A DNA stretch of 64,000 nucleotides from Cliona cf. orientalis (taxonomy: Eukaryota > Porifera > Demospongiae > Clionaida > Clionaidae), in NCBI GenBank assembly GCA_963930775.1, contig OZ005690.1, positions 12,736,411 through 12,800,410 on the forward strand. The letters run 5' to 3'. The notes under the pieces were generated by a model. The model did no database searches, had not been told where the DNA came from, and saw only the letters and a program-made list of their open reading frames with translations. Within the stretch, counting starts at the first letter, position 1. Each line of letters starts with the position of its first letter. The position numbers and the translations under genes are program-made. Of the stretch, positions 5,924-52,270 are shown piece by piece.

Positions 5924-5992
5924 CTAAGCTACATTTTTGAGTTCAATATTACCACTAGGCTGAGGATGGACTTCGACATCAGTTGAAGTGGG
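5924..5992 (-). CDS. Hexokinase receptor exon 19: C-terminal tail
   Basis: After acceptor tctag, 23 codons in phase 0 read PTSTDVEVHPQPSGNIELKNVA and stop. The previous exon ends in phase 0, so the join is in frame. It belongs to the six-member tail-exon family, with H-P-Q-P and E-L conserved. Confidence 0.65.
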   Translation of the reverse strand, partial: PTSTDVEVHPQPSGNIELKNVA

Positions 5993-8900
5993 CTAGACAA
6001 AAGAAATCAATAATTATTATTGCATCACTAGTATAATAATATTATGTATGAGCAAAGCTTAGTAGGAGGTTAATTCATAAATCAACTACTAACTTTCTAT
6101 AAAAACCAGAGCTCTGTAGAGCATATACTCAGCATGCTGCTTGCAAAGATGAGAGCTGCTGCGCTTGTTGATGATCTTTACATACTATGCTAGTAGTAGG
6201 AACTTAAAGCATAAGGAGGTGCGGCTGATAGGAGTGGCCAATAAAACGCCTGATGCTAGTGGGCCTACTGAATATTTTGAAGCACAAGATTATAGGAAGT
6301 TTTCTGACAGATTCGTTATGCTTAGGAGTTGCTCGAGATCTGATGACAGATGATAGACAACAGACAATTGCTTTATCCCTTGCTTATAAGCCCAGTGTGG
6401 ATTATAACGATCAGTCATTGGCTAAAATCCGACCAATATGGCTCCATGGACGCCCAAATAGGCCCTAGCGCTTGCCAGTAGCTGGGGATAGTAGTTTATT
6501 TAGCACCCACTTAGCTTACAGCTTTCACTGCTCTGTGCTGTGGTTTGTGGTAATTGCACCTCTGCACCTTAACAAACCATCTAGCTGTGCTTGTGTAAGC
6601 TATGCCAAGAGTGCAAGAATGTGCATGTAAGCCCTTCATTTGCAAGGACACTTATATCTGGCAAGGATACTGCTGTACTGCATATATATACAATGTACAA
6701 TCATGTCATTATGCCCTCAGTAACAATAATTTATTTACTTTCTGCGATTATTAGATAATTATGAGGTAATCTATGAGGTAATTATGAGAAGATTCAGGGC
6801 CTCAATGGACCCTTCTGGGACTTGAAATTTAGTGAAATATGTAGAGTATCTTGTGCATGTATCCAGCGAATACCTTACAAGCAGCGTGTTGCCTTCTCTG
6901 ACGAGCAGTGACGGCTGAACTTCACGCATTCTCTAGGCTGACATAATCCCGTGGATATAATTTATATAGCTAGGCTAGTCCTGCGCTATACTATAAGCAC
7001 GCACCATGAGCAGCGGTGCCACCGAACCAATCTAGCTGTACTGCGCTGTTGAGTTCTTCTTAGCTTTGAAACTTTACACTATCGAGGTCGAGAGCCACTC
7101 TCAGATTCCCGATGATCCGAGGATAGTCTGCGACTGAGGTACCGGCATCGTACTGTACAGTGAATCCACTATATTGACGACCTTTACCACATACACCATT
7201 TCCACTATGCAGCTATATACTGAGGGCATGGTCAAGTTTTCATATGTATTACAAAGTCCAACCAACAATTGGTGATGTCCAGTCAAACTGGGCTATGGTC
7301 TGACATTTGTCAGATCATCAACAAAACAACATGTAGACATGCATTGAACACACAAACATCACAAGTAATCTTGATACAAACTATAATACCTCTTTTGGTC
7401 CTTCCAATATGGCTTTTTTTTTAGGGCTTGATCTAAGAGATAAAATGAGAGTATACAGCGTCAGAATAAATTACAATAATTTTTATATGTATACGTACCT
7501 TGGGGTCAAACTTGGGGGTAAGCCGTCATAGTTCATTGCAACTGCAAAGGCAGCACCTATACTTGAACCATCCTCTGTCAGTTTCATCTTGATATTGCTC
7601 ATAGGTGCTAGTTCATCCAGTGCATCCCTCAGCCTGTAGAATTTATGTATCAATAGCACAAAATAATCACTGACAGGTGGACATGCACTAGGTGCCAGTA
7701 GAGTGAATGATTGTGTATAATAATACAATAATTATGATCATAATATTATTATTACTATGAGTATCTTGAGCAGTACTGTAGTGTAGGCACCATTAGATAC
7801 ATGCATGATTATTATTACCGTATGGCGGGTAATTTTCGCGGGGTCTAATTTTCGTGGAAAGTCCGAAAAGGCCCTCAAAATTAATTTTCGTGGTTTTAAA
7901 TTTCGTGACAGCAACCAGTACAGGGGCGTGGCACTGCTGCACAAGCGATGATGTAATCGATACGTGAGCTCGCGATCTTCTTTGTTTAACACTAAGCCAT
8001 AGAGACTTGGACAAATAGCATGAGATACAAGAATATTAGTGTCAAATTAAAGACGCTATCAGCTGGATGACAGTGGCTACTATTGCTTGCTAATACTGGA
8101 AAGTGTTGGCCGCGCTGCCACGATGTTTGTGACCACGCCCATCATCGTGGACTCGCATAATACTATATCACTGTAGGCATTAATTTTCGTGGGTGGAAAA
8201 TTTCGTGACTCCAAGTCAACCACAAAAATAACGAAAATTAGCACCCCACAAAAATTACCCGCCATACGGTATTATTATGTTGAAGTTGTATTATAATAGT
8301 CTTGTGCTTCCCTATTGTTATTGTTGTACACAGGTTACATGTATCTTCATGATAAATTTATCATCATTAATTTTAATATTGACATGAATTTACCGTTTAC
8401 CTGCGGGTGCTGTACTATTATTAGAGCATAAGTTCAGCATGTGCACTACAAGTAATAAAAATAGTAGCCAAAACTTTCAAGGGAGACTGCAACTCTATAG
8501 GAAATGAGCATTTCATGGTGGGTGTGGCATGTCTAAAATTTCATGCAGAAAACTTTTTGAGATGGCATTGCATGGTTCTCAAACCATGAAAGTCATATCC
8601 CTCCCCAGAAAGATTTCTATTACAAAACAGTAGCAAAACTAGAATTTGATGTAATACCGTATAGCGGGAAATTTTCGAGGGTAGCAATTTTCGTGGATGT
8701 GGGATTTTGAACTTTTTCGCGTTTTAATTTTCGAGGATCAGCCTTGAGACAAAGCCACACCCCCAAATTGGATGCAATAAAAACCACGCCCCTCTTCTTT
8801 CACACGTGCGTGAAAATCATAGCAGATAGTGTTAAACACGAGCCAAGTATATCTGAACTACGTAGCTGTGTTGTGGAGGCGATGATCTGTGGATACCACG

Positions 8901-11900
8901 AGTATCAAAGCATTTGGGAACCTGAAGTTGGAGAAATCTGACGTGTATCAGAGAGCCCGGTAACGTCCGTGACCCCTACGCTGTAGCTGTCACAAAATCC
9001 GAGTCTTCAACAATAGTTGGATACGGTCCAAGAAAAATGTCAGCTATATGTTCGCTCTTTCTTCGAAAATGGCTTGCTAACGCTACAAATAGTGCATTTC
9101 TGTTCAGCATACCTTGTGCGACCACACTCGTTCTACTGATATCATGTGCTGGTGAGACTGCGCATGCTCGAGCTAAGTCAGTGTAGGAACGGGTCGTCAA
9201 GTCATACCGTATAGCGGGAAATTTTCAAGGTATCAAATTTCGCGGATTCACCCTGATCCGCGAAAACAGCGAAAATTAATACCCTCGAAAATTTCCCGCT
9301 ATACGGTACACACAATGAAAGGATCGTACTCCAACTCACGCACACATAAGGCCACTCCAAATAAATTTCCTGTTTCCCGTCCACCGCCCGCATCCTTTTC
9401 TGGCATGTCACAAAATTTTCCATTATTAGTACTTTTGTATGTATGCAATATCCGCATTTACTTTTGTACACGTAGTGTTCTTGCCTCAAGTGAGTGATAA
9501 TTAATTAGTTTAAGTGTTTCCTGTAGGCCTTGCTGCTATGTAAATAATGGAATTTACCGCCCGCCCGCATACTACATTAGTTGTTTCCAGGACGGGAAAC
9601 AGGAAATTTATTTGGAGTGGCCTAATTATGTACATAAAGCCAGCTCTAATGTACTTGTATATAGGTAAGGAACAGCTCAAATGTACATATTATAGTCAAC
9701 AAGTTCCATCATGGGTGCATAATCATCACCACAAAGGAATGCTATAAAAGATGTGCTCGCAACAGATTCTAACATTACATACAAAATCTATCTGTATGGT
9801 ATAGTACCTATCAGAAAAAAGAGCTCGTTTGTAAAGAGTGCCATCAACAGCCACAGTGCAGCCACTTAACTTAGTCTTCTTGATCTTCTTCACCAGTGCT
9901 ACAATACCAGCAGCAGCCAATCTAGCAGCACGAGTGGACACAGCCACACACACTCTCCGAATCACCTCACAGTCCTTGATAGATGCTTCAATACCGAAAC
10001 GATTTTTGAAAAGCTCCTTGCACTTCTTCATTTCCCTGCAGTAAAAGATTTATCTATTTGTATGCTATTGCTATCATACTGTTGGTTAGATCAAAACAAT
10101 TACATTTTTCCCGCATACATGTAGTATAATTATACCGCCTATATATAGCTAAGAGCAATAATAATAATACTGTAAAAAATATTATTGGATAGAATGTACC
10201 ATCCTTCCATGGTAGACAGCCTTTGTGTGCTAAATTCCTTAAAATTATCAAATCTGTCAGATGACTGTCCCACAAAGAGTTCTCCTTTGCTGATGAGATC
10301 CTTGAGAATAAGATAGACAATTCTCCCCTGGTACTTGTTTGAGATCATCTTCTCAAAGCTTTAAACACAACCAAAAATTAAAAATTATTATGATCACTGA
10401 CACATACTGGTACCTGAATGAACAATCACTGACTTACATTTGTTGTTCAGAATTGCTAGAATTCTCATCAAGAAGGCGATCATAGTAATTCCTCGAATAA
10501 TTAAGCTTTCCATCATCACCAAAGGCACCCCACTCCGTGTTAACAATGACCTTAGTATGCCCACCATCTTCTTTGAACTTGGGTATGGCACTTAGCTTCT
10601 CCATGTAGCAGGCATTTACCCCATCACCTAACACTAGTCCAATATGGCAGTCTGGCACTTCATTCCCCACAGAAAGTAGGACCCCAGTTGTGTCATTGAT
10701 CAGTGCTACCACATTGATTTGCATATTATCCTATAACATGGAGTAAAGATATACCTATCTAACTCAGTCTGGTGAATTCCTGAAATATTTTATTATACAG
10801 GTGAGAGGGGAGAAAAGTGCCAGGAATTATTTTTTTCCCTGTATCTGCTAACTTCTTTCTCTACACAAAAGGAGTGCGTCTCAGGGGCTGCTGCAAAGCT
10901 CATTATCTTCCAGTGCAAAAAAGACCATTGCCTCTAATAGCAGATTCTTTATCTCAGCCATTTCTTGATATACTTAAGCATGCGCTTCTCTCCCCTCTCG
11001 CCTAGTTAACATCTTTGCCTTTACTAGGCCATTGGTAATAAAGTCAGTTTATTAACTGTACACATAGTCTGGTACTTACTCCTCTCCTAGAGGCAGCTTC
11101 CTTGAGTAGCTGGACAACATCCCTCCCCTCTGCTCCAGTGCCTCTGAAGTCTTTAGTCCATCGGATTAGCCTGCCACAAGTGAGGCTCTCAGGCTTCATA
11201 AGGAAGGGAAATGTGAATCCTATGGGCAACTGTCTCCTGATATTTCTGTCCTTAATGAACTTGGCTATGCAGTCGACAATGAAATCAAATAGCTTTTCAT
11301 ACGATGAACCCTTAGTATCTTCACTGATGAAGAACTCCTTACAATCTTTCCTTTTTTTACTTCCCTTAATAATAACTACAGAAACGAAATTTACAGCACG
11401 CTATCAATAATGGCAATATGTGTGTGCATGAAGCGTCTGCCTAATTATATCATACAATGGAAAATTGTGAGGGATCCAAATTTCTTAATCAACTAACAAG
11501 AAATTATACCCATGAAATTAAGAACTGTTGTACAGCAAATAATGTGCGTACCGTGTTTGCTCGATCAGATGCTGTTCTCGAATAGCATGTGTGCACATGA
11601 ATTAGCCTCGTGACTCGTCAATTACGTGTGGGCATTTCTCTACAGATTGCTTCTCTACCGGTATCAACAAATGCCACTCTCAAATTTAATAGTCGCTGCA
11701 CAAAATTGGCCAATAAAATTAATAGTAGCCATGACATCTAATCGAGCAAATACGGTAATCGTTAAATGTTAAAAATAGCCTATCCACAAAAATTTGACCC
11801 CTCCAAAACTTCACAGAAGATACCAAAATATTATTATTACCACTGAAAGTGAACCTACTAATGTGCAGCACTTTAAGATGGTGAACTCCTAAATCCACGA

Positions 11901-14900
11901 CAAGGAACTCTCCCTTCTCTGTCCCCTTGGGCATCTCGTGGACATGAGTAACAAACATCTTCACATTTACATCTTCTTCCTCACTTTCCAGCCCTTTAGT
12001 AAACTCAGCAGACAGCAATTTTTCCACCTTCTCCAAAGATTGCACAGGAATCTCAAACATGTTCACAGCTTCATTCTATGGCGAAATTAAATTATGCATA
12101 ATATTATATGTAATATCAGGGGCAAAATAATTATGAGCCGGCAAAGGAGCGTGTAACTTGCATGCCATTGAAATAAAAATTCATGCAAGGACATGGGTGT
12201 GGCTATCTTTGCATGTATATACCGTAGGATTGGTATGTTATGCACTATTTTTAGTTATGCGATTATGCGAATTTTAGTGAAATCGCACAATTAAAAATAG
12301 AAAAATAAGCATGCGCATTGCATACATTGCGCAATAGGGTGGCCGGCCGAGGCACGCACCGCGTACACATGATCATATTATCATATTATTGCATGCGCGA
12401 TCGCGCAATTGATCTGCTAGTAAGCGCTCAGTCTGTTTGACCAAACGAGTTTGAGTCCGGAAAGAGCCAGAGAGAAGATTGCTTCCAATATTAATTTTAC
12501 GAACTACTGGTGAGTATTTTCAGCATTAATCACCTCTACTAAAGGCTGATACATAGCTCTTTCCTCTACGAGAGCCATATGGAGCGGATAGTCTCGTGTC
12601 CAGATCCTACCCTCGAGGGTGGAGTCTGGCTTATGGTATTATCTATCGCATATATAAAAATTGCATAATACTTTTAACTAGAAAATCGCATAAATTTAAC
12701 CCCACATAACATACCAATCCTACGGTATGGCAATAGACATTTCCAATAGACACACACTTTCCAAAAATGGAAAGTATATATTGAATTTAAATTTGTATTT
12801 CAATGGCACCCAGGTTGATATGGTAGTTGCATGCACGCTCCTTCGCCACCTTTGGCGGCTCATATGCTCCTGATAATATAAATTGATCAAGTTAGTCTCA
12901 CAGCTCATATCCTTTTGCCACCATGCATGGCTAATTATAACGTTCGGTCATCGGTCACTTGACCCCCACAAAGAGCCTTGTGGCCGGTCAAAATTAATAG
13001 TATAGTGTCTGGACATAGTGACCGCCCATACTGGTTGCCTTATGCATATGCACTTCAGTACTGGTAGTGGACAGTGGTTGGTGGTCACTAATGTGATGCT
13101 ACTATAGTTTGTTCAACGTCAACTTGAGGCTAATTTCCTTGTCTGTACAGTAGCATGGTTTGTGGTGCATGTACTTAGTAGTAGCTACTGTACTGTGGTG
13201 GTGAAGTTGCTGTAGGATACTTCTAAGTATTGTACATAACAGTTACACTATTATGATATCTGTATACTATAGCTCTATAATACCAACAGTTAAAAAATCT
13301 TAGCATGGATCTATAGTGTTATGTCCTGACAACATTTGGAGATGTCCGACCAACCTTTGGTCTGATCTGACATTTGTCAGGTCATTAGCAAAGAGTTATA
13401 ATAATAATAATTATTAGCTCTGCCATGTACAGTGTATGCAACAGTGCTAGTCTAGAGTTGATTAATACTAATAAGTACAATTAGATCCTAGTTGTAATAA
13501 ATACTGTGATTTGATTGGTCAGGAGCAGGTACCTATTTCTCATATAAACCTGTAAAAAGCTCATATAAACCCTGTAAATTTTTCATATACATGTAAACCT
13601 GTAAAAAATTGTTGCCTATGGTTAGGATTGTTGCTAGGCAGCAGTTTATATGTTAAGCCTATGGGCATTGTTGCTAGGATCTAAAGTTGTTTAGTCGGTT
13701 TCTACGTGATTTATAATTAGAAGACCTCAGGACTCAGTAGAACCCTCGCTTCGCTCGGGATTCTACATAGAGCCTTTCAGTCTTCTAAATCATTGTAAAA
13801 ACCTCCTAAACAGTGTCTAACTATTATTTATAACAAGTATAAAAAGCAATTGAATAAAATTGAAGGATGAAGTAGGGATGGCAGTGCCAAAAAATACACA
13901 AACAAGATTTGTAGGGACAACGTATCACACCCACTATACATCCCTACACTTGCTTTTTGAGTAGCCGTGCAAACACATAACATTATTATAATAATATGGG
14001 GCACATGCAGGAATGGAAATCAATACCGTAAACCCATGGATAGCAATACTTTACATACTAAATCAGAAGTGTATGATATTAATTATCGAGAAAAGCAAGC
14101 GTAGGGATGTATAGTGGGTGTGATACGTTGTCCCTACAAATCTTGTTTGTGTATTTTTTGGCACTGCCATCCCTACTTCATCCTTCAATTTATTCAATTG
14201 CTTTTTATACTTGTTACTGTTCTTTTTTTTAGAGCTCTCGGGGTAGCTTATGATTGTCATTAATTTCATCAATGCCACCTAACTGACTAATCTCATGGGG
14301 ACAGAGGCCGGGCATGAAACTCTACATACACTCTACATGGTGACCGGATATTATGGTTTGCATACTCATTGTTATTTATAAATGCTTAGAACTAGCTTTT
14401 TTTTCTGGACCAAGCTACATTCAACTGTGCTCCAACAATAATACAATACTATAGGGAAGTAGGTACACCTGGACCACTGATTAAGCATGTTTGTGTGATC
14501 CTAGCCTTTGTGTCAGGCCTGAGCTATGGTGACCACAACACACAGTGATTTCAAACTTGAATATTCCTGTAAGTGCAAATCTCAGGCAGTCGTTTGATAG
14601 CTAGCTAGGACGTCTTCTTTTGCATCACACACTATTGAACATACATCAGTGGGATTCTCGAGGTAACCAGCTAAACTGACCTGCGAATGAAACCACGCCC
14701 CTCGTTATCTCGATCCTGAAGCTGGCTGACCGCGAACTTGAAAGAAGGCCGTTTAGAACCAAGTAGCGACGAAAATCTTCTGTTTCGGGAGCGTATCTTA
14801 TAGGCCAGTAAGTTTACTGTTGGTAGTAGCCACCATAATCTGAGCTGATCGATCAGGTTTCGGCGCATGCGCGCCACTGACATCGGTCACATGACTTCAC

Positions 14901-17900
14901 CATGGTAACACCGTATGAGCATGCGCACTATATGACAAAATGGCTAATCAGATACACCCACAATTAAATCGCTTGTCCTGATAACACAAAATGAGTGTGC
15001 CACAGACGTGCGTGCTCGAAAATGGAGTGGATTTATACTCAAACTAAGGTGAGCGGTCAAGGCAGTCTTGAGTTAGCCCAGGAAAACAGAAAGAAAGAAA
15101 GAAAGATTGAGAAATGGCTATTTTTTTGAATATCTGGTTCTGGCATACACAATGGAATTAATGAATGATCTTGGTCTGGTTAGATAGATAATTTGCTGTA
15201 GATTCTGATTTTAACACTTAGAAATCTCATAAACTTGAGATACTTTGATATTTATAATGTATTACATATATGGAGTATCCGTGCCATCCCTACTTATAGA
15301 GTCTACCGACTCTATGATAATATATCTCACTTGTTTTGGTGATAGTTCCAGGAACTTGTCAAATAGTGCATCACATAACCTTAGTAGAATTTTCTATGAT
15401 CAAACATGTATGCATGCAACAAAATATACATTACTTAACATGTATACAGTGTAGTCCACTCAATTCGAACATACACATGTACAAATCCACCAAATTTTTT
15501 TGGAATTAAAGGAAAATTTGAATTACAGTGACATCCATTCATTAATAATTCAAATTTTGCTCATATGAATGGTAATTTTGAATTAAAGGAGTAATTTCTA
15601 TATACCACACATAAAGATGCAGCAACCTTTTTCTTCTTCTCTGGACGCAGACTGTTCACTTTATCTACTCTTTCTAGCTTTCTTTTAACAGTTAGAGCCT
15701 GATACTGTTAGATATAGCTAATTTCTGGCTAGTGCAGCTGCACTTAGGTGTAGCCATGTGGTGCTCACGTGATCTATATTCAGTATACTACATTTGCATG
15801 TTGATGTATATACTAAACCTTGGTGGATGTTTTAATTAAGCGCAAGTGGCATTTCAAATTTATGTATTAGCTCTATGAAAGACTTCAAATTAGAAGAAAA
15901 CTTGTGGTACAATGTATGTGGATTCGAATTAGGTGGACTACACTGTACTACTATACAATGTACGTATACCTACATGTACTTAAATAATGGTACGTGAAAT
16001 ATTAATTTATCGGGAGACTGTCTTAGTATTTCTTACTTACGTATTGTCTACCAACCCCCATCCCTCCCCCCCCCCCACCCCCCGCATTGGCAAATACCAC
16101 AAGGATTGCAAAATTAGGGATTTTCCACTGTTCAGCTAACCCATGGATGTAGTTACTATGACTGGTTTACAGACTGCAAATCACACTGCTGCACATCAGT
16201 TCAAGGTGCTTAGTTCAGGTATATTGCTGACATGATATTAAGGGATTTTAATATTGATAGTTATTGTACTATAGAAAAGTTATGAAATCTCACTTGAATT
16301 TCATCAGGGGCTGGCCAATCCACCTTTTCTATCATATTATCCAAGGCATCCTGCAACAAAAGTATAAGAAGTATACATGTAGGATGATGACAAGGATATA
16401 CATGTAATAGCATAGACAATCTCATATTATCACATAGTAATACTGTATATGTACTTACTTCTATAGAAGGTGATTTTTTTTCATCTCTCAATTCTTCAAT
16501 ATTGCTCTAAGATCATTGCAAACAAAACATCATGTCAGTGTGAGCCAGATCGAGACATACAGCACAATAATAATACAAATTACTAAGATTGGGGCGAGTT
16601 TGACCAAGCACCCCTCCCCCTTTTGGATATTATCCCCTCCTAATAGTGTGACTTTGACCTAGCTATCATGAGTGCCTACCACCATCACCCTCCCTCCCCC
16701 CCACCCCGAAGAAATCCTAAATGCATCTCTGTTGGCACAGTATGTTAAGATTTCTTTGCTCTATTTTACTGCTTCTCTTGATAGCACATGTGACTTACCC
16801 TAAAATCATCGTCAATGCTAGACATATCTGGAAATATTTCCAACAGATGATCAAGAGCTCTCTGGAAAATAATATACAAGCTTACACATTATCATAATCC
16901 ATAATTACCATAATTCTTTTAAAGCTTCAGCATGAAAAAATAATATTGCTTGAGCTTTGCCAAATTTATAGTCAACACTCCATCCACGTGTGCATTCTAT
17001 TCCCATTTATTGCATACACATGACAACCTTTACCGCGCCGAGACTATTTTTAATCACTGCATGGGTAAAGGGTGCCGAATAATTAGAAGAGCCGAACTTT
17101 TAGGAGTACTTGACATGTTACAGTAGGTATTGATGCATGACAAGACCTTACTTGCAAGTCTTCATCTTCTTCTCTCTTCAATTCCTCCAGGCAATTTTTT
17201 AGTCCATCCTAAATTAAGTTGTAGTACATGCATATGGGTGTAGGGGGATACATACACCATGTACATTACATATAACTACACAAAGTAGGTGCCAAAAGTG
17301 CAGCTGTACGTTGTATGTATCCCACCTGAGACATGGAATATATACCGTACCCTTGCGAAAGAGGGCCCATGGGCGGTGCACCTTACATTGGGTCAAGATT
17401 GGGGGATGGGCCAATATTCGAGGTATCAGTATTGCGTTTAATATACGTGAAAGAGCGCCCAGGTAAGTTACCCACGCTATCTTCATAATTTAAATAGTAG
17501 CAGCGGCTACTATTGATGCACGGTTACCAATCCAGAGCAAGGGCAGCCGCAATATTTTGCTGTGTGTTGTTGATTGCAGCCATATTAAGTGGGCGTGGCT
17601 ACGATCGCTAGCCGTGTACGATCGTTTGTTTGTGGCATAAAGCTAGTTTTACGGCTGTTTAGCACGTTACTTATCGATATTACATAGACTACTCGGAGTT
17701 CAGTCCTCATAAAACCAATCATTTGCGCTACGTTTTCTACACATGGGCGCATATTCATCTCATGTGATTGAAGCATCGAAACTTGTCACCACTGAGGTCA
17801 AGAGTTGATCTTAGAATCATCTCTGTGATCGAATAGACTGTGCACACACTATATCTAAATGAAGTTGTTTGATGCTTACTATGTATACGTCCATGCTCAA

Positions 17901-20900
17901 TAAGTAAGACCCTTCAAGTATATTGATGACCTTTACCATATGCACCATTAGAACTATTCAGGTACTGAGAATGTAGTCAAGTATTTCATTAGTATGACAA
18001 GTGAGCTAGACTAATACATAATTATTATAATATTATTAAACTTAGTGGACTTACTCTGACGCCAATAGCTTCCGCTTTCTTTAACTCTGCACGCAAAGCT
18101 CCCATAGTACTCTAGAAATTTAATATAATATAATCTCATATGTCATCATGTGTAATTTTGGAAGAATTTTGCATAATAATTATTACTGTCAGGGTTTCAT
18201 CTAGCTCCCCCCCCCCCAAAACATCTGACTCTAATTACATAATGTCAACAACTAGTAGTTGTTTTCATAGTTCCGGGAAAGCATCCACACCCAGCTAAGT
18301 ACCCACGTATGGATCAATGTATCCATATGCAATTTATATATCATAGAGTCGGTAGACTCTATAAGTAGGGATGGCCCGGATGTGCCATATATGTAATACA
18401 TTATAAATAACCAAATATCTCAAAATAGGTAATTTTGTGAAATTTCTAAGTGTGAAAATCAGAATCTCCAGCAAATTGTGCATCTAACAAGACCAAGATC
18501 ATTCATCAAAACAATTGTACACGTCAGAACCAGATGTTAAAAAAATAGGCCATTTGTCAATCTTTCTTTCTTCTTTCTTTTTCATTATCAGGGCTAACTC
18601 AAGACTGTCTGGACCGCTCATCTTAGTTTGAGTATAAATCCACTCCATTTTGTAGCGCGCAGCTCCATGACACGCTAGTTTTGCGCTATCTCTCCAGTTA
18701 CGTAATGGTGGGTGTGTACGGCGCATTAACTAGTGGGTGTGTCTGATACGCCATTTTTGTCATATAATGCGCATGCTCATAATATGTTGCCATGGTGAAG
18801 TCATGTGACTGTAGTCAGCGGCGCGCGCCACCGCCGATAGCATACGCGTATACTCGTATAGCTAGCTAGCTAGCGCTCGCGCTAGGCCTCGAGCTTAGTC
18901 AAGCTAGTGCCTATAGCTTAGCCATAGCTAAGCGCCAGGCTCTCCCGCGCGAGCTAGCTAGGCAGTGTAAGCGCGATATAGCGAACTTAGCTAGAGGCTA
19001 GTGCTGCGCTGGGATATGGAGACTCCAGGCCTCAACGTATATACACGGCACGGGCCTCAGCAGTCGACATAACAGCCAGCTCAGCAGTGACAAAGATAGT
19101 CGATAAAATAAATGATAGCTACTAGAGTCTCATAGCTACTTGGCCGCCAGAAACAGCCTTTGGCATCTATGCTTTATCGAGTTAACGAGGGGTGTGGCTA
19201 CTACTTTTGCGCACGCGCAAACTCACCGCTTATCTTCTATATTATAATTACTGAAGTTGCAATAAAAAAAACAGAAATAAGTATAAAAAATAATTGAATA
19301 AAATTTAAGGATGAAGTAGGGATGGCAATGCCAAAAAGTATACGAACAAGATTTGTAGGGATAAGAAATAATCACAACCACTATACATCCCTACGCTTGC
19401 TTATTGAGTAGCATGGGGATCATAAAATTAATAATGAAAACTGACTGACAGGGAGAACATGAATTTCTTCCACATGCAAGTCAAGAACACTCCAAGGATA
19501 GCATGTTTCGAACAAGTCAACATCAATAGGTCTGTAATAATCGAGAAAAGCAAGCGTAGGGATGTATAGTGGTTGTGATTATTTCTTATCCCTACAAATC
19601 TTGTTCGTATACTTTTTGGCATTGCCATCCCTACTTCATCCTTAAATTTTATTCAATTATTTTTTATACTTGTCCCGGTAAAGCGCCCATGTAGGCCAAA
19701 TTCACAAGTTATACTTACAATGTAAGCACCCATGAGCACTTAACCAGGACACTACGGCAATTACAATTTACTGAACTCACCATGATGAAGCTGTCTTTCT
19801 GCATTCCAGTCACAGCCTAGATAGTATTATGTATAAAGCACTATCAATTCAGATAGATGGAGCATTTTTTCTATGACAATAACGTTATACATCAAAATAA
19901 TGGATAGATGGATAAGCTAATGAACTAATGAAACCATATACACCCAAATGTTCTATGCTGGATATTGAAAATTTCCCAGCTATTATTTAATACTTCTAAG
20001 CTATAGGTTTTAACAAATAAGTGCAATGAATGATTAGCAAAAACTCACACTTCTTACCGAACGTGATCTTAAAGCAAAGTAGAAGCTGAGCAGAGATCCC
20101 TTAATTAGGTAACTCTCATGCGTATCCTGTATGGGCAAGTGTACATGTAGAGAAATAAAGTTATGGCACTTTGAAGTTTCCCCATTACTATAATTATGTT
20201 TGTAATGGAAAGTCTTGCATGTTTCCTGCCCACGTGCCATGTTATGGGCGGGGCTACACACGCACATTTACTAAACGTAATGACTTTCATATAATTTGCT
20301 CAAAATTAAAGTATAGAGATCCTACTTGCAATGTATGTCTAGCTGTACTATATATGTAGCTTTTCTGGACACTTTTTTGAGTGTGTCAGCTCCCTTGAGA
20401 TGCAGATGTTCAAAAAATAGCCTATTGTCAAGCTATGAGTCGCTCAGATGCCTAGCCAGATCTCCAGCTAATTTTCGTACCAAGGTGGCCCCTTACACTT
20501 ATGCGGATGAGGCAATGATTGCATTCTAAAGTGTGCATGTACATACATAGATTCTGAATAAGATATGCTGCCAATTAAATTAGGTGCCTTTCACTGATAA
20601 ATGGGCTCAGCACCAAAGCCATTACAACTATGATCACTCACCTGTTTTTCTTCACTCAACAACCACTGTCGATCACCTAAATATTATGATACATACATGT
20701 ACATACATACATACAGTAACTGTTGTTGTTACCATCATTAGCTGATGAGACATAATATGATTTATCCTTATTCACTGACAGTCCTTCAGAGTTTCATTTA
20801 GTTGGGGGGGGGCCTCCCCCATAAAAATTTAACGCTAAGGTCATGCAGGGCCTGTTTGGGGCGAGCCTGAGCTGATACACATGTACATGTAGCTTCGTAC

Positions 20901-23356
20901 CCACACCCTTTGAGAGGAGAAAGGGCCTGGATAAGACTCGGAGGCTAGAGCTAAGAGAGCTCCAAATGAGAAACATCAAAGCTGAAGCACAGGTTATTAT
21001 TACATGTATCTGAAGCAATCTGGAGAAATTAAAGAAATTCTCCTAAACAGAAACTGCCCGAAAATGTGACCCAAGGTGTGCTATAAATCACGCTTCCACT
21101 TCAAATTTTTGTCAGTAGATAATTATGTCCATTGTATCTAGTTATAGCGCACTTTAGTCTACAACTTAGAATATTATATTTGATATGAAGCTCAAGGGCT
21201 ATGACATGCATGTTTCTAAGTATAATCCCATGATAGATTCTAAACAAGCAAAACATTGAAGCCAAGGGATCTACAATTCATTTTAGATACCTAGCTAGGC
21301 CATGACGCTTTGCCTTATAGAGACTCTACCTATAATACTTCTAAATAATTCGCTAAGCATGCAACTAATATGTATACTTGTGACAATAGGACAATAACAT
21401 TACCTTCTGGAACAAAGTAACGACCAATATGTTTGCGATATATCTTAATAAACATCACCAAAGTGGTGACGGTGATGATGATGACGATGATGATGAATAC
21501 TGTTACTACACCTATAGTAGTCCCAACTGCAGCACCAACACTGAGTTGACCTAGAAAAATTAAATTATCATACAATTACTTGCAGAAAAATGTGCCTAGG
21601 GTCAAACTTGGCATTATGTCACAGTATAAAGCATAATACATGTATTAATTGTTCGTTCATCGATCAATTAAAGTGGGTACATATATAGGTGATCAACATC
21701 ATTGGACTACTAGCTCAGGTCTATGCTATAATATTATTATTATTGAAGGCTACAACTATATGCAACATTGAAGTACATCTAACTGACATCCTGTTGTACT
21801 TTGGGTACCAGCCCCATGCCTTTATGCTTTCAAAGAAATATTGACTTTCACGAAGGCTCGCCCCACACAGACGATTTTTATCACCACTAGTTTTATACTT
21901 ACTAGATTCTGATGATAATCCAAAAACAAAAGGAGTAGGTTGCAGGGTTACATTTACTTCACTTGAATTGATTCCAATACAACCAAAGCGATTTACGGCA
22001 GCAACTATTAAACCAAAACTTTCAGGACAGTCTCTCAATAAAAGAGAATATATAGGGGAATTTGTAGTAATTTTCATGTTTCGTGTTGGAACATAAAGCA
22101 TGTAGTTTGTAATATCAACACTGTTGGGAGGAGGATCCCACTTGACTAGTATCTCACAATCATTTTCAGATGATTGCAAAACTGCTGTTGCTCCAATATT
22201 CAGTGGTGCCTCAGGAACACCTACATGTATGTGTATACAACATGTATATATAAAATAAAATGTGCACCAGTCCACCACACAAAATTCATGATAGGAGGGC
22301 ATGGTGTGGGTGGAGCATGTAGCCACAACAAAGCTTTTGGATTCTCCCCATTCTCCACATCAAAGGGAATTCTGTACTGAAGGCTTGTTGGGTCGATAAG
22401 CCTTATACCGTGTTATTCGAATAGAAGCCGCACCCCGATTAGTAGCTGCACCTGAAGCTCTGCAAAAGAAATAGTAGCCACCCTCGAATAGTAGCCGCAC
22501 GCATGTGAGAGTACAATTAAGTGGGTGTAGCCACAATCATAAGCCATGAATGATCGTTAGTTCGAGGCAAAAACATGGCAGAAAACGCCCTTGACTTGGT
22601 TCTGCTGATTACTTCTCGATCATTCATACATCTTTTTTGAATATTCGAAAATCAGTCCTGAAAATGAGTCTGTCAATGTCAAGCCACTCCCCTCAACGAT
22701 GTCAAGCATGCATGCACATGCAGCAGACTTGGGGTGAGGCTAGATCGAACTCAGCCATCTGCCAATACTTTTGTTCTTGCTGGTTGAAGCCAATACACCA
22801 AATTTTCCGGCTATAGGTATTGCGCATGATATATTTCCGCGCACATAATTGTCGCAAAACCCAGGCTGTCTGATAATATTTTAATAACCAAAATTAATAT
22901 CCTGTATGTATAATATAATATGTACATGTACATGCCTGTACCTGAAACATTAAACTCTTGACTCATTCTACTGCTAGTTATTTCACTAGTGCAAGTCACA
23001 GTAGAAGCCTGATCAGCAACAATATGCAACTCAGATTCCAGTGTAGGTACTCCACTGATATTAGTGTTCCTTGTAAGTGTTGCAGTTACATTCCCATTGA
23101 TTGTACTTGTCCTATTTGTTCCTGGCACACTATCTGTAGTGAATCGCAGAGGGTTGACTCCTTGCCCTATGTATTCATCACTGCTCCAAGCAAGAATCAA
23201 GCTGGTCAAAGTTTGTGAGCCTCTTATTGTACAAGTGAAGATGACCTCTTCACCTCGACAGGCGTGACTTCTGCCACGTAGAGTACTGGTTAACTCTTGA
23301 CATGTTACATAAACTGCTGCAGCTATAATGATCAACAATAAATTTATTAACAACAC
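5924..23356 (-). CDS. Membrane receptor: Ig - FN3 - TM - helical linker - hexokinase-like domain (19 exons)
   Basis: Exons (minus strand, high to low): 23356-22942, 22220-21903, 21550-21404, 20676-20642, 20126-20049, 19816-19781, 18111-18055, 17208-17152, 16861-16799, 16506-16459, 16350-16294, 12075-11859, 11375-11080, 10730-10438, 10358-10200, 10035-9808, 7633-7499, 7432-7390, 5992-5924. Every junction has AG/GT sites and compatible phases, and the total is 2751 nt (916 residues plus stop) with no internal stop. Predicted order: signal peptide and Ig (1-138), FN3 (139-244), TM (about 250-278), acidic/basic helical linker (294-437), hexokinase-like (438-880), tail (881-916). Known: hexokinases are soluble or mitochondrial enzymes. 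I know of no membrane receptor carrying this domain. Inferred: the domain is cytoplasmic and may sense sugar or act as a scaffold. It could instead be two adjacent transcripts, but the 35-nt exon at 20642-20676 converts phase 1 to phase 0 exactly where a join needs it. Confidence 0.68.
6710..7232. repeat. Diverged copy of the ACATCCCCAGT element family
   Basis: It shares with 54574-55052 and 62076-62555 the segments GTAATTATGAGG, TTCTCTAGGCTGACATAATCC (varied) and TTGACGACCTTTACCACAT, followed by CACCATTTCCACTATGCAGC. The left boundary is uncertain. It lies in the intron between exons 18 and 19. Confidence 0.45.
7390..7432 (-). CDS. Hexokinase receptor exon 18: small basic tail exon
   Basis: A 43-nt exon, acceptor cttag and donor gtatta, entering in phase 2 and leaving in phase 0. 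It encodes SSPKKKAILEGPKE. The second gene has the matching exon at 56011-56056 (SPSPGGSVELEEPQE) and a third decayed copy lies at 46715-46760. A Ser-Pro and basic cluster is visible; no domain. Confidence 0.6.
7499..7633 (-). CDS. Hexokinase-like domain, last exon (adenosine-binding end)
   Basis: 135 nt entering and leaving in phase 2. The product RDALDELAPMSNIKMKL is followed by TEDGSSIGAAFAVAM, matching the hexokinase C-terminal motif (LSEDGSGKGAALITAV in animal enzymes). The Gly-Ser turn that contacts adenosine is kept. It is followed by DGLPPSLTP before the tail exons. Confidence 0.8.
7816..8271. mobile_element. TACCGTA-ended inverted-repeat element (cgggtaattttcg family)
   Basis: It starts TACCGTATGGCGGGTAATTT and ends AAATTACCCGCCATACGGTA. 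It is 456 bp and closely similar throughout to 2682-3153. It lies in the intron between exons 16 and 17 of the receptor. Confidence 0.8.
8655..9308. mobile_element. Composite TACCGTA element with an internal short copy
   Basis: The left end TACCGTATAGCGGGAAATTT at 8655 pairs with AAATTTCCCGCTATACGGTA ending at 9308. A second left-type end begins at 9205, so 9205-9308 is itself a complete 104-bp element with perfect terminal repeats. Either a short element inserted at the right end of a longer one, or the long element rearranged. No transposase is seen. Confidence 0.65.
9350..9622. repeat. Perfect 33-bp inverted repeat (stem-loop element)
   Basis: The arm at 9350-9382 (GGCCACTCCAAATAAATTTC...) is exactly reverse complementary to 9590-9622, with about 207 bp between. 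It lies in the same intron as the element that ends at 9308. Likely a small non-autonomous transposon. Confidence 0.65.
9808..10035 (-). CDS. Hexokinase-like domain exon (phosphate-2 region)
   Basis: 228 nt, phase 2 to phase 2. It reads EMKKCKELFKNRFGI, VSTRAARLAAAGIVALVKKI and GCTVAVDGTLYKRALFSDR. The segments match the hexokinase patterns VVSRRAAQLCGAGMAAVV and VGVDGTLYKLHPHF. The D-G-T turn that contacts ATP phosphate is kept, while the following His-Pro-His is replaced by Ala-Leu. Confidence 0.85.
10200..10358 (-). CDS. Hexokinase-like domain exon (connecting helices)
   Basis: 159 nt, phase 2 to phase 2. It reads FEKMISNKYQGRIVYLILK and ELFVGQSSDRF. It aligns with YEKMISGMYLGEIVRNIL of animal hexokinases. 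The usual Y-L-G-E is here Y-Q-G-R, a charge reversal at a normally conserved Glu. Confidence 0.82.
10438..10730 (-). CDS. Hexokinase-like domain exon (catalytic Asn-Asp)
   Basis: 293 nt entering in phase 0 and leaving in phase 2 at gtaagt. It contains NVVALINDTTGVLLSVGNE, LGDGVNACYMEKL, NTEWGAFGDDG and YDRLLDENS. By family knowledge these hold the catalytic base Asp (Asp209 in human HK1 numbering; residue 621 here), the preceding Asn, the Asn of the G-x-x-N-A-C-Y motif, and two sugar-binding Glu residues. All are kept. The second gene carries the same exon at 56557-56849. Confidence 0.9.
11080..11375 (-). CDS. Hexokinase-like domain exon (sugar-binding loop)
   Basis: 296 nt, phase 1 to phase 0. 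It reads KLFDFIVDCIAKF, LPIGFTFPFLMKPESL, LIRWTKDF and GRDVVQLLKEAASRRG. The family motif is LGFTFSFP...TWTKGF. The sugar-contacting Ser (Ser155 in HK1) is Pro at residue 566, while the Thr-Lys pair is kept. The second gene has the same Pro and also Lys to Arg. Confidence 0.87.
11859..12075 (-). CDS. Hexokinase-like domain first exon (degenerate phosphate-1 loop)
   Basis: 217 nt entering in phase 0 (after ccatag) and leaving in phase 1. It reads SLEKVEKLLSAEFTKGL, VKMFVTHVHEMPKGTEKGEF and LVVDLGVHHLKVLHI. The order fits hexokinase N-terminal sequence (lpty...pdGtEkGdFLaLDLGGTNFRVL). The phosphate-1 motif D-L-G-G-T-N is D-L-G-V-H-H here, which should impair ATP binding. The second gene reads D-L-R-V-N-H at the same place, so the loss is shared. 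Confidence 0.85.
12220..12727. mobile_element. TACCGTA-ended element, aggattggtatg family
   Basis: Perfect 23-bp terminal inverted repeats: 12220-12242 begins TACCGTAGGATTGGTATG and 12705-12727 is its exact reverse complement. 508 bp, with internal attatgcgatt-type repeats. It shares only the TACCGTA heptamer with the other families. Confidence 0.8.
13663..13826. repeat. Dispersed repeat with hairpin (copy at 33029-33195)
   Basis: GGGCATTGTTGCTAGGATCT ... GTTTCTACGTGATTT ... CAGTGTCTAACTATTA is repeated at 33029-33195. Within each copy an arm AGAAGACCTCAGG is followed by GTCTTCTAAATCA, so it can fold back. A fragment is also seen at about 55155-55185. Confidence 0.6.
13832..14214. mobile_element. 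Long inverted-repeat element, arms about 128 bp
   Basis: The left arm (AACAAGTATAAAAAGCAATT..., including GATGAAGTAGGGATGGCA) is almost exactly reverse complementary to the right arm ending at 14214. The loop is about 125 bp. A sister copy with its own matched arms is at 19279-19671. Within each copy the arms agree better with each other than with the sister copy. Confidence 0.75.
14886..15318. repeat. Dispersed repeat, inverted relative to 18341-18812
   Basis: Matches the reverse complement of 18341-18812: ATGACTTCACCATGG, AATGGAGTGGATTTATACTC, GAGTTAGCCC and GAGTCTACCGACTCTATGAT. A short end fragment (GAGTCTACCAACTCTATGAT) also occurs near 60058. Both large copies lie in introns of the hexokinase receptor. 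Confidence 0.65.
16294..18111 (-). CDS. Hexokinase receptor exons 7-11: small helical linker exons
   Basis: Five phase 0-0 exons: 18111-18055 (STMGALRAELKKAEAIGVR), 17208-17152 (DGLKNCLEELKREEDEDLQ), 16861-16799 (RALDHLLEIFPD...), 16506-16459 (SNIEELRDEKKSPSIE) and 16350-16294 (DALDNMIEKVDWPAPDEIQ). All have clean AG/GT borders and lengths divisible by three. The sequence is rich in Glu, Lys and Leu and probably helical; I recognise no named domain. The second gene keeps all five at identical length (62686-62630, 61939-61883, 61564-61502, 61189-61142, 61046-60990), with a few conservative changes, which argues for selection on the protein. Coordinates given span the block, introns included. 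Confidence 0.7.
18341..18812. repeat. Dispersed repeat, inverted relative to 14886-15318
   Basis: See the partner at 14886-15318. Shared blocks include GAGTATAAATCCACTCCATT and CATGGTGAAGTCATGTGA. No coding sense is apparent. Confidence 0.65.
18820..19020. other. GCTAGC/GCGC-rich palindromic stretch
   Basis: Unusual local composition in an AT-rich intron: repeated agctagct, gcgcgc, gcgctcgcgctagg and many self-complementary hexamers. No exon was recognised. Confidence 0.4.
19279..19671. mobile_element. Long inverted-repeat element, arms about 128 bp (sister of 13832-14214)
   Basis: Arms at 19279-19405 and 19543-19671 are reverse complements (AAGTATAAAAAATAATTG... / ...CAATTATTTTTTATACTT) and carry GATGAAGTAGGGATGGCA. 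It lies in the intron between exons 6 and 7 and is followed directly by a TAGTGTCC-family small repeat. Confidence 0.75.
19781..20126 (-). CDS. Hexokinase receptor exons 5-6: juxtamembrane cytoplasmic segment
   Basis: Exon 5 (20126-20049, 78 nt) encodes DTHESYLIKGSLLSFYFA then LRSRSVRS. Exon 6 (19816-19781, 36 nt) encodes AVTGMQKDSFIM. Both are phase 0-0. Exon 5 has two possible donors 9 nt apart, gtaaga after TCG and gtgagt after AGT. The second gene retains only the downstream one (the upstream GT is AT there), so I chose the downstream site. Matching exons in the second gene are 63973-63896 and 63652-63617. Confidence 0.65.
20642..20676 (-). CDS. Hexokinase receptor exon 4: 35-nt phase-converting exon
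   Basis: Acceptor atttag and donor gtgagt bound 35 nt. Entering in phase 1 after the membrane exon (split Gly codon), it reads GDRQWLLSEEKQ and leaves in phase 0, which every downstream cytoplasmic exon needs. Its existence is the main sequence argument that the receptor ectodomain and the hexokinase exons form one gene. Confidence 0.6.
21404..21550 (-). CDS. Hexokinase receptor exon 3: transmembrane helix
   Basis: 147 nt, phase 1 to phase 1. QLSVGAAVGTTIGVVTVFII is followed by a long Ile/Val/Thr helix, then basic YRKHIGRYFVPEG. Homologous to the membrane exons of gene A and gene C. Confidence 0.78.
21903..22220 (-). CDS. Hexokinase receptor exon 2: fibronectin III domain
   Basis: 318 nt, phase 1 to phase 1, intact frame. 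It reads GVPEAPLNIGATAVL, ILVKWDPPPNSVDITNYMLY, FGLIVAAVNRFGCIGINSSE and a Ser-rich stalk. The FN3 hallmarks W-D-P-P, the Y-x-L-Y strand and the final V-x-A-V-N-R-x-G are present. This is the only one of the three paralogous FN3 exons of this type that is free of frameshifts. Confidence 0.85.
22942..23356 (-). CDS. Hexokinase receptor exon 1: signal peptide and Ig-like domain
   Basis: From ATG at 23356 the first residues (MLLINLLLIIIAAAVYVTC) look like a signal peptide. The Ig-like domain follows, with CRGEEVIFTC, LILAWSSDEYIGQG, NGNVTATLTRNTN and ELHIVADQASTVTC: paired Cys, a Trp core and several N-glycosylation sites. It leaves in phase 1. A splice acceptor (cattatag before CTGCAGC at 23322) aligns with the acceptor of the gene C Ig exon, so the true exon may start at 23322 with a signal peptide encoded further upstream. 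Confidence 0.75.
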
Positions 23357-24787
23357 GCTGTATTTTCCCGTATATTAATCACGAGAAATGCAAAAAAACC
23401 CTTGCTTTTCGCTTAGTGGATATGGTTTTAAATTCGACACCAACTAAGTATATTGCATGGACAATATACATGTATATTAATGTACATTGTACGTACCACT
23501 AGATTAGGCTATGTCTGACAGTACAGTGTTCTCCCCAAGCAAAATTCAAGGCATGATGGGAGGGCATAGTTTGGGTGGAGCCTGTGGCCACATCAAAGCA
23601 CATGGGGACTATCCCTATTCCCACATCAAAGGAAACTCTGAACTGAAGACTTGTTGGGTCGACATGCCTTAGGTACATGTATGCTGGGGAGAACACACTG
23701 CAGTAGCTAGTTAAATTCATCTAAAACTAGAGGTCTCTCATGGTTGACATAGTGTATTCCCCCCCCCCCCCCCCCCCCGTATACATAATCTTACGTAAGT
23801 AGCACTGTATACGGTGACACTTACCAGATATAATCATCCATAAGTACTGTTGTTTGAACCAGACCTACATATGCATTAGCATAATTATAAATGATGGGAT
23901 CATAAGGCCACATATATGGCCTAACCAAAAATCTCCTATTACATGTATAAAATAGCCAGAATTTTTGCCATCTATCCATCGCCAGGTTTGGATACCGTAC
24001 TTTATCTAATACTACGTATAGAAAAAAAAATTTCAATTTTGAAAAATGCGCGTTTCTCTGGTAAAGGTCGTCAATCTCTCCACGTTACGAGAATTCGTAA
24101 AAATCTACGTTAGATTGGATCATACGTTGTGTTCGATTAACTACAGTACTTTAGTGGCCGCCAGTCCTGCTCAACTCAGGCTCAGAGGTGCTGATCACCT
24201 AATGGGCTATTTATAGGAGAATTCCACGCAAACGTGTGAAGGAATTTTAATGATATGCAAATATATTCAGCGCCCTTATAGGCCAGGTTCCTATCATGCC
24301 CATTGGTAGGAAACGAATGTCTATGGGCAGGGGAGGTTGGACATGACACATAATATTATCGTCATGATCACTTGACCTTGGTATGCAATTATGCTGCCAC
24401 CCCGCCCGTCCACCCCTCATACTTCTTGCAAATCGAAAAACTCGTTTGTCAGAATGGCAACACCAAAACGTATTTATTGATCGCAGTCAGCTTCTTTCGA
24501 TGTTACAACATTAGGTCTACACGATTCATCTCCATTCCAGCTTTAGATTTGGCCATAGTTCAAAAACTTTTAACTACCAGCTATATACATGTACACTCGC
24601 AAATAGCATTTTTTGAATGTGTGATCATCAGCTACTGGACGGACCTTGAAGACAGCCTCCTAAATTTCTGGACAAGCTATCTACAGTGTATTTTTGCCAA
24701 ATCCAAGACCACCGCCTACGGACAATCGAACTCGACTAGATTGACGCCAGCTACCGGATCCAATATTAATCTCTTACTAGGTTGGTC

Positions 24788-49275: not shown

Positions 49276-49889
49276 GGGCCTGCTGATAAATTTAATGACA
49301 CTTTCAACGGATTGAAAAGAATAGCTAATTTTCGGCAAGGATCGTCATGTAACATGTGTATATGCTATAAATGGGAATAGAATGCGCACATGGATGGAAT
49401 ATTGAATATTAGTTACCGGTCGTAGTGTCCCAGGCAAGCACCCATGTACCTCATTTCATGAAGTAGCTTCTATACAATGTATGGGATTTGATCATGGATA
49501 AGTGCCCATGCGGGCCAAAATCGTGAGTTATGACCCAGGACACTCTACGGTACGTAACCTCAGTGAAACTCAAATAATAATATTATTATTTTTGTGCTGA
49601 ATTTTTACAGTATTCTTATACTGCAGGACGGTTTCAAGCAATTCTATTTATTGTGGACCCTTTTTTCTGGTGAGTGTGATAAGTATAATTTAGCAAAGTT
49701 ACATGTAATTAATGATTGTCATTTGTGTCCATAATATAGAATATAATTGAGTTATTGTTAACAGAACAGGCGATTGAGAAGTGAAATGGAACTTGAAAGT
49801 CCTTTCACAATTAACACCTGTCTTACCAGGCTTATGCTATCTAGTCTTAATTTTATAAAATTAATTACTAGTACTCTTAATTTAATTAG

Positions 49890-50267
49890 CTGCAGCAATT
49901 TGTGTGCTGTGTCAGCAACAACAATTGACCAGTACACTACGTGAGGGAAATTACAGCTGTCAAGGAGAAGAGGTCGTCTTCACTTGTACCGTAAGAGACT
50001 CAACTTTGTCAGTCTTAGTTATTGGCTGGAGAAGTGATGAATATATTGGGCCAGATGCCTTGCTTCAATTCACAACTAACGTTATGCAAGGAGAGAATCG
50101 TACAAGTATGATTAATGGGAATATTACTGCAACACTTACAAGAAACACCAACGATAATGGAGTGCTTATGGTGGTGTCTATGCTACATATTGTAGCTACT
50201 GTGCCTTCTCAGGTGACATGTGGTGTAACTGATAGACAGCCAGTGATTTCAAGGTTCTCCGTCTCAG
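49890..50267 (+). CDS. Gene C Ig-like exon
   Basis: 378 nt, phase 1 to phase 1, clean frame, acceptor taattag and donor gtatat. Paired Cys (YSCQGEEVVFTC and SQVTCGV), a Trp core and N-glycosylation sites. Homologous to the first exon of the hexokinase receptor. Confidence 0.75.
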
Positions 50268-52141: not shown

Positions 52142-52270
52142 GTCAACTTGGTGCTGGTGCTGCAGCCGGGATTGCTATAGTTGTGGCAGTTGTAGTGATA
52201 TCATTCATCTGTATCCTCAGTGTCGTCATTATTGCCTATATTATCTATCGCTATTTCAAAAGAAAAGAAG
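52142..52270 (+). CDS. Gene C transmembrane exon
   Basis: 129 nt, phase 1 to phase 1 (acceptor ttcacag, donor gtacgt). Long Ala/Ile/Val helix followed by YRYFKRKE. It is two bases shorter at its end than the gene A exon, which explains the different exit phase. Confidence 0.7.

Follow-up and report, generated by a model that had tools for sequence, protein, structure and literature searches.

A gene on the minus strand of the analyzed window, which comprises 64 kb (C2:12736411-12800410), appears to encode a receptor with an Ig-like domain, an FN3 domain, and a transmembrane (TM) segment, followed by a complete hexokinase fold. The same order of exons, i.e., Ig, FN3, TM, linker, and hexokinase, was found five times in 255 kb, once in inverted orientation. 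The best explanation seems to be that these copies, denoted A to E, represent a family of demosponge single-pass receptors with a non-catalytic hexokinase-like tail, which would most likely bind glucose or be a glucose-shaped docking domain. We assign this explanation a probability of about 60%. The genome that was searched comprises 217 Mb on 149 contigs. The pattern CGA(S/C)YAF matched it at four sites, whereas the reversed control pattern matched none; three of the sites, on contig C12, read CGASYAF, and the one whose surroundings were read resembles a silicatein, so that the animal is very likely a demosponge.

Exon structure of the gene in the window

The receptor-hexokinase gene of the window (copy C) runs from 23.3 kb to 5.9 kb, if counted from the Ig exon. 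Its exons were rebuilt from the minus strand, with the following result:

23825..23864, minus strand: signal-peptide-like exon S2 (VWFKQQYLWMIIS, then G), phase 0 to 1, hydrophobic core; absent from the earlier model
22942..23322, minus strand: Ig-like exon, phase 1 to 1, splice sites, invariant C-W-C over seven paralogues; Pfam match weak
21903..22220, minus strand: FN3 exon, phase 1 to 1
21404..21550, minus strand: transmembrane exon, phase 1 to 1; a long hydrophobic stretch precedes YRKHIGRYFVPE (by eye)
20642..20676, minus strand: adapter exon L1 (GDRQWLLSEEKQ), 35 nt, phase 1 to 0
20058..20126, minus strand: linker exon L2, phase 0; copy B lacks the donor
19781..19816, minus strand: linker exon L3, phase 0; clear in B and C only
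18055..18111, minus strand: linker exon L4, phase 0, splice sites
17152..17208, minus strand: linker exon L5, phase 0, splice sites
16799..16861, minus strand: linker exon L6, phase 0, splice sites
16459..16506, minus strand: linker exon L7, phase 0, splice sites
16294..16350, minus strand: linker exon L8, phase 0, splice sites
15331..15393, minus strand: linker exon L10 (KILLRLCDALFDKFLELSPKQ), phase 0; both splice sites kept in A, B, and E
11859..12075, minus strand: hexokinase exon HK1; DLGVHHLK replaces DLGGTNFR
11080..11375, minus strand: hexokinase exon HK2; FTFPFL replaces FTFSFP, WTK retained
10438..10730, minus strand: hexokinase exon HK3; GDGVN replaces GTGTN, INDT and NTEWGAFGDDG retained
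10200..10358, minus strand: hexokinase exon HK4; FEKMIS retained
9808..10035, minus strand: hexokinase exon HK5; VDGTLYK retained
7499..7633, minus strand: hexokinase exon HK6, aligned with hexokinases
7390..7432, minus strand: C-terminal exon C1, no clear counterpart in the other copies
5924..5992, minus strand: C-terminal exon C2 with a TAG stop; related exon in copies B and D

An earlier note on this DNA had proposed exon positions with matching splice phases, and these are borne out by the AG before and the GT after each internal exon and by the single open frame. The phases are 1-1-1 over the Ig, FN3, and TM exons, the 35-nt exon at 20676-20642 indeed performs the switch from phase 1 to phase 0 that had been ascribed to it, and phase 0 is kept from the linker into the hexokinase exons up to the TAG at 5924. 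The positions of the earlier exon set hold, but the phase-0 exon at 15393-15331 was missing from it. The total of 2751 nt that had been given for 19 exons could not be reproduced; the summed lengths amount to 2742 nt, if the Ig exon is extended to 23356, which is 9 nt less.

The start of the gene had to be revised. The GTG at 23356, which had been taken as the start codon, was rejected because it is intronic: an acceptor AG precedes the Ig exon in the compared copies, and in copy E as well as in a receptor on the plus strand of the window an in-frame stop is located two codons upstream of this exon. A signal peptide had also been predicted; its drawn position was wrong in detail, but a conserved hydrophobic exon (S2, 23864-23825) was located via blastn matches between the upstream regions. 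S2 is kept with AG and GT in all six sequences compared (copies A to E and the plus strand receptor of the window; acceptors judged by eye). It is likely part of a signal peptide that is incomplete as found, and an exon bearing the ATG was not found. The candidate exon L9 (15698-15627) was dropped because of its poor donor (gttgct); neither B nor E has a clear counterpart, and in copy A it is located between L6 and L7.

Intronic inverted-repeat elements with a shared flank around GTAGGGATGTATAGTGG are present at about 19700-19300 and 14240-13850 (minus strand), and they are probably mobile elements, judged by eye. Directly downstream of copy C a receptor fragment is located at 4897-2331 (minus strand), which consists of an FN3 exon with a stop, a TM exon, and a piece that is similar to the C-terminal exon.

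Collinear copies and the linker between receptor and hexokinase

The copies were sought by tblastn searches with the exons against C2:12615001-12870000 (255 kb, with 400 N letters in the stitch). In addition to copy C, the following were found:

C2:12857387-12830708, minus strand: copy A (tblastn)
C2:12804757-12792967, minus strand: copy B, C-terminal exon at 12779606 (tblastn)
56557..63973 of the window, minus strand: part of copy B inside the window, with L2-L8, L10, and HK1-HK3; Ig, FN3, TM, and L1 lie past the window end
C2:12689464-12666067, minus strand: copy D, diverged (tblastn)
C2:12625680-12634623, plus strand: copy E, inverted and most compact, about 9 kb from Ig to HK6

Open hexokinase frames of about 440 residues are present in three copies (A, C, and E). 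HK1-HK3 are intact in copy B, which is truncated, and its exons HK4-HK6 were not found. In copy D, L4-L8 and L10 are recognizable (L4, L5, and L10 weakly), and HK2 and HK3 are fused by an in-frame deletion. After boundary fitting, AG and GT flank L4-L8 and L10 in copies A, B, C, and E as well as the hexokinase exons of A, B (HK1-HK3), C, and E; the L2 donor of copy B is AT instead of GT. The adapter exon L1 is identical between B and C at 34 of 35 nt. Copy E contains a different candidate exon for the change from phase 1 to phase 0 (12627492-12627544, with good splice sites), and a search for such an adapter in A and D did not reveal any. Within the span of copy B, between HK3 and the C-terminal exon, an additional Ig-FN3-TM receptor is located on the plus strand (window 49889-52260); the first 20 residues are missing from its FN3 match.

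In blastn comparisons of the region from the TM exon to HK1, the linker exons stood out as islands of similarity with short flanks. The same linker exon is covered in both copies by seven of the 11 matches between E and C, by seven of the nine between E and A, and by seven of the 15 between E and B, the longest match of the last pair being intronic. When A-E and B-C are pooled, changes are found at 39 of 173 synonymous and at 77 of 658 nonsynonymous sites (p = 0.0004). The synonymous excess has a p value of 0.001 for A-E and of 0.10 for B-C, and it is not significant for L4 and L5 alone (p = 0.22). By these counts the linker exons, taken as a set, are under purifying selection. The dN/dS values are 0.43-0.74 for the linker and 0.40-0.55 for the hexokinase exons; values near 0.5 indicate that selection on the copies is relaxed.

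Copy A has no Met in L2, L4, and L5, and copy E has none at the start of HK1; therefore, linker and hexokinase have no conserved early start of their own. In each of the five copies, HK1 is preceded by a splice acceptor whose place and phase (0) agree with those in the two ordinary hexokinases, which are encoded on contigs C12 and C16. This suggests that a hexokinase copy was joined from an inner exon onward. A genome-wide search with the linker yielded 17 matches, every one of them to copy A, B, C, or E; since the linker exons of D went undetected, the sensitivity of this search is limited. Upstream of the ordinary hexokinases, no clear linker exons were found within 1.2 to 1.5 kb. The two hexokinase Pfam families gave 13 and 19 matches in the genome, all of which lie in the five copies or in the genes on C12 and C16.

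It could be argued that two adjacent genes, for a receptor and for a diverged hexokinase, have been tandemly duplicated as a pair and are joined on paper only. The gap between TM exon and HK1 is about 6 to 17 kb in copies A to D, L1 was not found in A or D, and a transcript passing the TM donor could end early. We nevertheless regard two genes as quite unlikely, because seven linker exons (L2, L4-L8, and L10) follow one another in an unchanged order in A, B, C, and E and have retained their splice sites except for the L2 donor of B, because these exons are under selection as a set and L2, L4, and L5 of A lack a Met, and because HK1 follows a splice acceptor in every copy, including copy E with its HK1 start devoid of a Met. 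Copy E also has the TM exon, the adapter candidate, and L2 within 1.05 kb. That the copies are a decaying set of duplicates without function seems very unlikely: such decay would be in line with the loss of HK4-HK6 and of the L2 donor in B, with the divergence and the in-frame deletion of D, and with the stop in the FN3 fragment at 4.6-4.9 kb of the window, but A, C, and E have kept open frames of about 440 residues together with fitted splice sites, and the dN/dS of the hexokinase exons is about 0.5. The fusion of receptor and hexokinase, as the earlier note had claimed, is supported by the collinearity of the five copies, which speaks against a chance join, by the conservation of linker exons that have no conserved early start codon, and by the compactness of copy E. 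From these features we infer a single transcript from the receptor to the hexokinase exons.

Residues of the hexokinase tail

The full hexokinase fold that had been postulated is confirmed by Pfam, which finds both halves in the joined protein with E-values of 4.6e-52 and 4.7e-68. PF00349 and PF03727 are matched over their full lengths, with 177.2 and 229.6 bits at cut-offs of 24.3 and 24. In a comparison of the joined hexokinase with PDB, the hexokinases HK1 and HK2 were found at about 1e-168 for both halves together (1e-81 to 1e-85 for single halves). Glucokinase was matched at about 1e-88. A protein kinase domain was not found in the joined protein of copy C, for which Pfam reports nothing beyond the two hexokinase halves and a weak L27_1 (0.12).

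The residues were compared in an alignment of the receptor copies with rat HK1 and the ordinary hexokinases, the C12 gene being covered over HK1-HK3 only. Six residues are lost in all five copies, i.e., G535 (V or A), T536 (H, Y, or N), N537 (H), T680 (D or N), T682 (V or A), and S603 (P); the position of T680 is an Asp in four of the five. Both ATP motifs, GGTN and GTGTN, are thereby absent from all copies. Four residues are kept in all five copies (N656, D657, N683, and E708), and E742 is kept in the three copies that could be aligned there; copy D also reads FEKMIS in this region, and copy B ends before it. We take D657 to be the catalytic Asp and the other residues to be binding sites for ATP phosphate or for glucose. 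The sugar site is changed further by an Arg at K621 in B and E and by an Ile at T620 in D. The ordinary hexokinases have kept GTGTN and FSFP, together with GGSN in the C12 gene and GGTN in the C16 gene, and the latter has a Ser at N656.

At the place of FSFP in PDB entry 4QS7, entry 4QS9 has FAFP; if the exchanged Ser is numbered S177, the second Gly of GGTN becomes G104. By this numbering, the equivalents of G535 and S603 in Arabidopsis HXK1 are G104 and S177. The variants G104D and S177A of HXK1 are reported to have lost catalysis and kept glucose sensing (PMC3594732, PMC6306471), and S177A is reported to bind glucose in the crystal (PMC8256278).

The residue changes point to a loss of catalysis, and the tail probably has no enzyme activity. 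Its sugar site does not appear to be untouched, with Pro at S603 in all five copies, Arg at K621 in two, and Ile at T620 in one; by analogy to the plant proteins, it may still bind glucose. It is conceivable, if somewhat unlikely, that the tail is a fold-only scaffold that docks partner proteins and binds neither ATP nor sugar. The changes just listed and the loss of the ATP motifs would be in line with such a scaffold, whereas the conservation of N656, D657, N683, and E708 in all copies, and of E742 in the three aligned ones, argues against it. We consider it highly improbable that the tail is an active, membrane-tethered hexokinase, which would use ATP in an unusual way and supply sugar phosphate at contact sites. 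GGTN and GTGTN are lost, an Asp occupies the position of T680 in four of the five copies, and Arabidopsis HXK1 is reported to be inactivated by mutations at two of the lost positions. This outweighs the retention of the catalytic Asp and of most sugar residues as well as the yeast Hxk2 serine mutant, which is reported to be only partially inactivated (PMC6306471).

The family shares with PF00349 and PF03727 proteins, including mammalian HK1, HK2, and glucokinase, the complete fold, the catalytic Asp, and the motifs NACYME, NTEWGAFGD, FEKMIS, and VDGTLYK. It differs from them by the absence of GGTN, GTGTN, and the Ser of FSFP in all five copies and by its placement behind a TM segment and an Ig-FN3 ectodomain. 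Ig and FN3 domains outside, one TM segment, and an enzyme fold inside are also found in receptor tyrosine kinases and phosphatases, and enzyme-fold tails inside receptors are a known plan. However, the inner domain of the sponge receptors has a sugar-kinase fold and is neither a protein kinase nor a phosphatase, and we know of no other receptor with a hexokinase fold inside. Literature searches with hexokinase terms and for sponge Ig receptors, the scope of which was mostly outside subscription papers, yielded no hexokinase-tailed receptor among the matches listed. To our knowledge, plant hexokinases of type B have no extracellular recognition domains. These membrane-associated enzymes, e.g., PpHxk2 of Physcomitrella, have in common with the sponge proteins an N-terminal membrane element, according to PMC3045890. 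With the non-catalytic glucose sensors of plants, i.e., HXK1 G104D and S177A and HKL1 of Arabidopsis, the tail shares the two changed positions, the fold, and most sugar residues. In contrast to them, the sponge proteins have lost more ATP residues, and their replacements are Gly to Val or Ala and Ser to Pro. In the cited passages of PMC3594732, PMC6306471, and PMC8256278, the plant sensors are not described as tails of surface receptors.

Ectodomains, receptor array, and possible function

All seven paralogous Ig exons that were compared contain the invariant C-W-C. Pfam assigns C2-set_2 to three of the seven (best 0.0015), and copy C matches Ig_2 at 0.08, under the cut-off. A PDB profile search with the Ig exon resulted in 17 weak matches, chemokines among them, and the best was an antibody heavy chain at 0.037. 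The fn3 family was found for four of seven FN3 exons (best 5.9e-6), with copy C under the cut-off at 0.018, and five of the seven also match Ig_RIMBP2 (best 0.008). These matches place an FN3 domain in the receptor family. Single-sequence structure models of the isolated exons were poor, with a pLDDT of 41 for Ig and 47 for FN3. As judged from these comparisons, both domains of the family are divergent. As judged by eye, a long hydrophobic TM exon is present in A, B, C, and E, and it was also seen in D.

The ectodomains and the tails seem to have different histories. The synonymous distances of ectodomain, linker, and hexokinase are 0.585, 0.244, and 0.197 between A and C, 0.800, 0.386, and 0.238 between C and E, and 0.165, 0.127, and 0.217 (HK1-HK3) between B and C. 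The dN/dS of the ectodomain is 0.51-0.78, and that of the short TM exon is about 0.65-1.15. B and C share their ectodomain type with a receptor at C2:13.508 Mb (its FN3 is 80% identical to that of C), near which no hexokinase match was found, and the ectodomains of A, D, and E resemble a receptor at 13.567 Mb. The unequal distances and the ectodomain types suggest that ectodomains were swapped onto the hexokinase tail or that the tails were homogenized.

Of 100 genome matches of an Ig-exon query, 90 are located on C2 between 10.5 and 14.2 Mb, and 32 of 36 matches of an FN3 query are on C2. According to this distribution, the hexokinase receptors are a small group within a large Ig-FN3 receptor array. 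The region C2:10.5-14.2 Mb, which includes the window, is a giant array of Ig-like receptor exons and resembles a candidate recognition-receptor complex. Tyrosine kinases were not found in this region among the matches listed (119 of 2511 candidates scored), and three death-domain matches in the array were among the 150 listed (12541194, 14038697, and 14041850; 150 of 1292 candidates scored). Another type of receptor, whose Ig exon differs (VSVCPGGQVLLTCE motif), is present at C2:12618334-12619700, and similar Ig exons occur across C2:12617000-12862000; these are apparently separate genes that are interleaved with the hexokinase receptors. Two candidates for a missing N-terminal exon were rejected, since each appears to belong to a separate receptor gene. 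One was a signal exon at 12618334 (for copy E), and the other was an additional Ig exon that is located upstream of copies D and E and of the plus strand receptor. Elsewhere in the genome, a frame of 2925 codons on C17 (2316562-2324877, minus strand) contains at least ten tandem protein-kinase domain matches among the matches listed, and a similar run of at least three protein-kinase matches is found in a frame of 1326 codons at C2:7894805-7897624.

For the family as a whole, we envisage the following scenario. An ordinary cytosolic hexokinase copy would have been spliced behind a receptor of the large Ig-FN3 array, the join being at the old phase-0 acceptor before HK1, and the adapter exon from phase 1 to phase 0 would have fitted the frames. 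In the predicted topology, the product of the signal-like exon, the Ig and FN3 domains, and the TM segment would make up the outer part of the receptor, and a linker of short phase-0 exons and the complete hexokinase fold would be inside. The tail would have lost ATP phosphate binding and retained the fold and most of the sugar pocket. Intracellular glucose would close the cleft between the two lobes, as in ordinary hexokinases, and the closed cleft would alter the docking of partners on the tail of an externally engaged receptor, so that contact outside and sugar state inside would be read by one molecule. Glucose binding and signaling by the tail are guesses that are guided by the plant precedent. 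The earlier note had offered a link to sugar status and a sugar-shaped scaffold as readings, and between these two the residues fit a non-catalytic domain that may bind sugar. Tentatively, the proteins could be regarded as a new class, receptor pseudo-hexokinases, with an exchangeable Ig-FN3 ectodomain and a constant tail that would sense intracellular glucose without phosphorylation, in which case the recognition of self and non-self or of partners would be gated by the metabolic state.

Whether hexokinase acts as a glucose sensor is a matter of debate, since its catalytic and sensing roles are difficult to tell apart. In this family of five copies, evolution itself seems to have split sensing from catalysis and to have tied it to a surface receptor. 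Such a receptor could enable a cell to combine what it touches with the sugar it holds, and the family would make it possible to test directly whether recognition is gated by metabolism in one of the most ancient lineages of animals.
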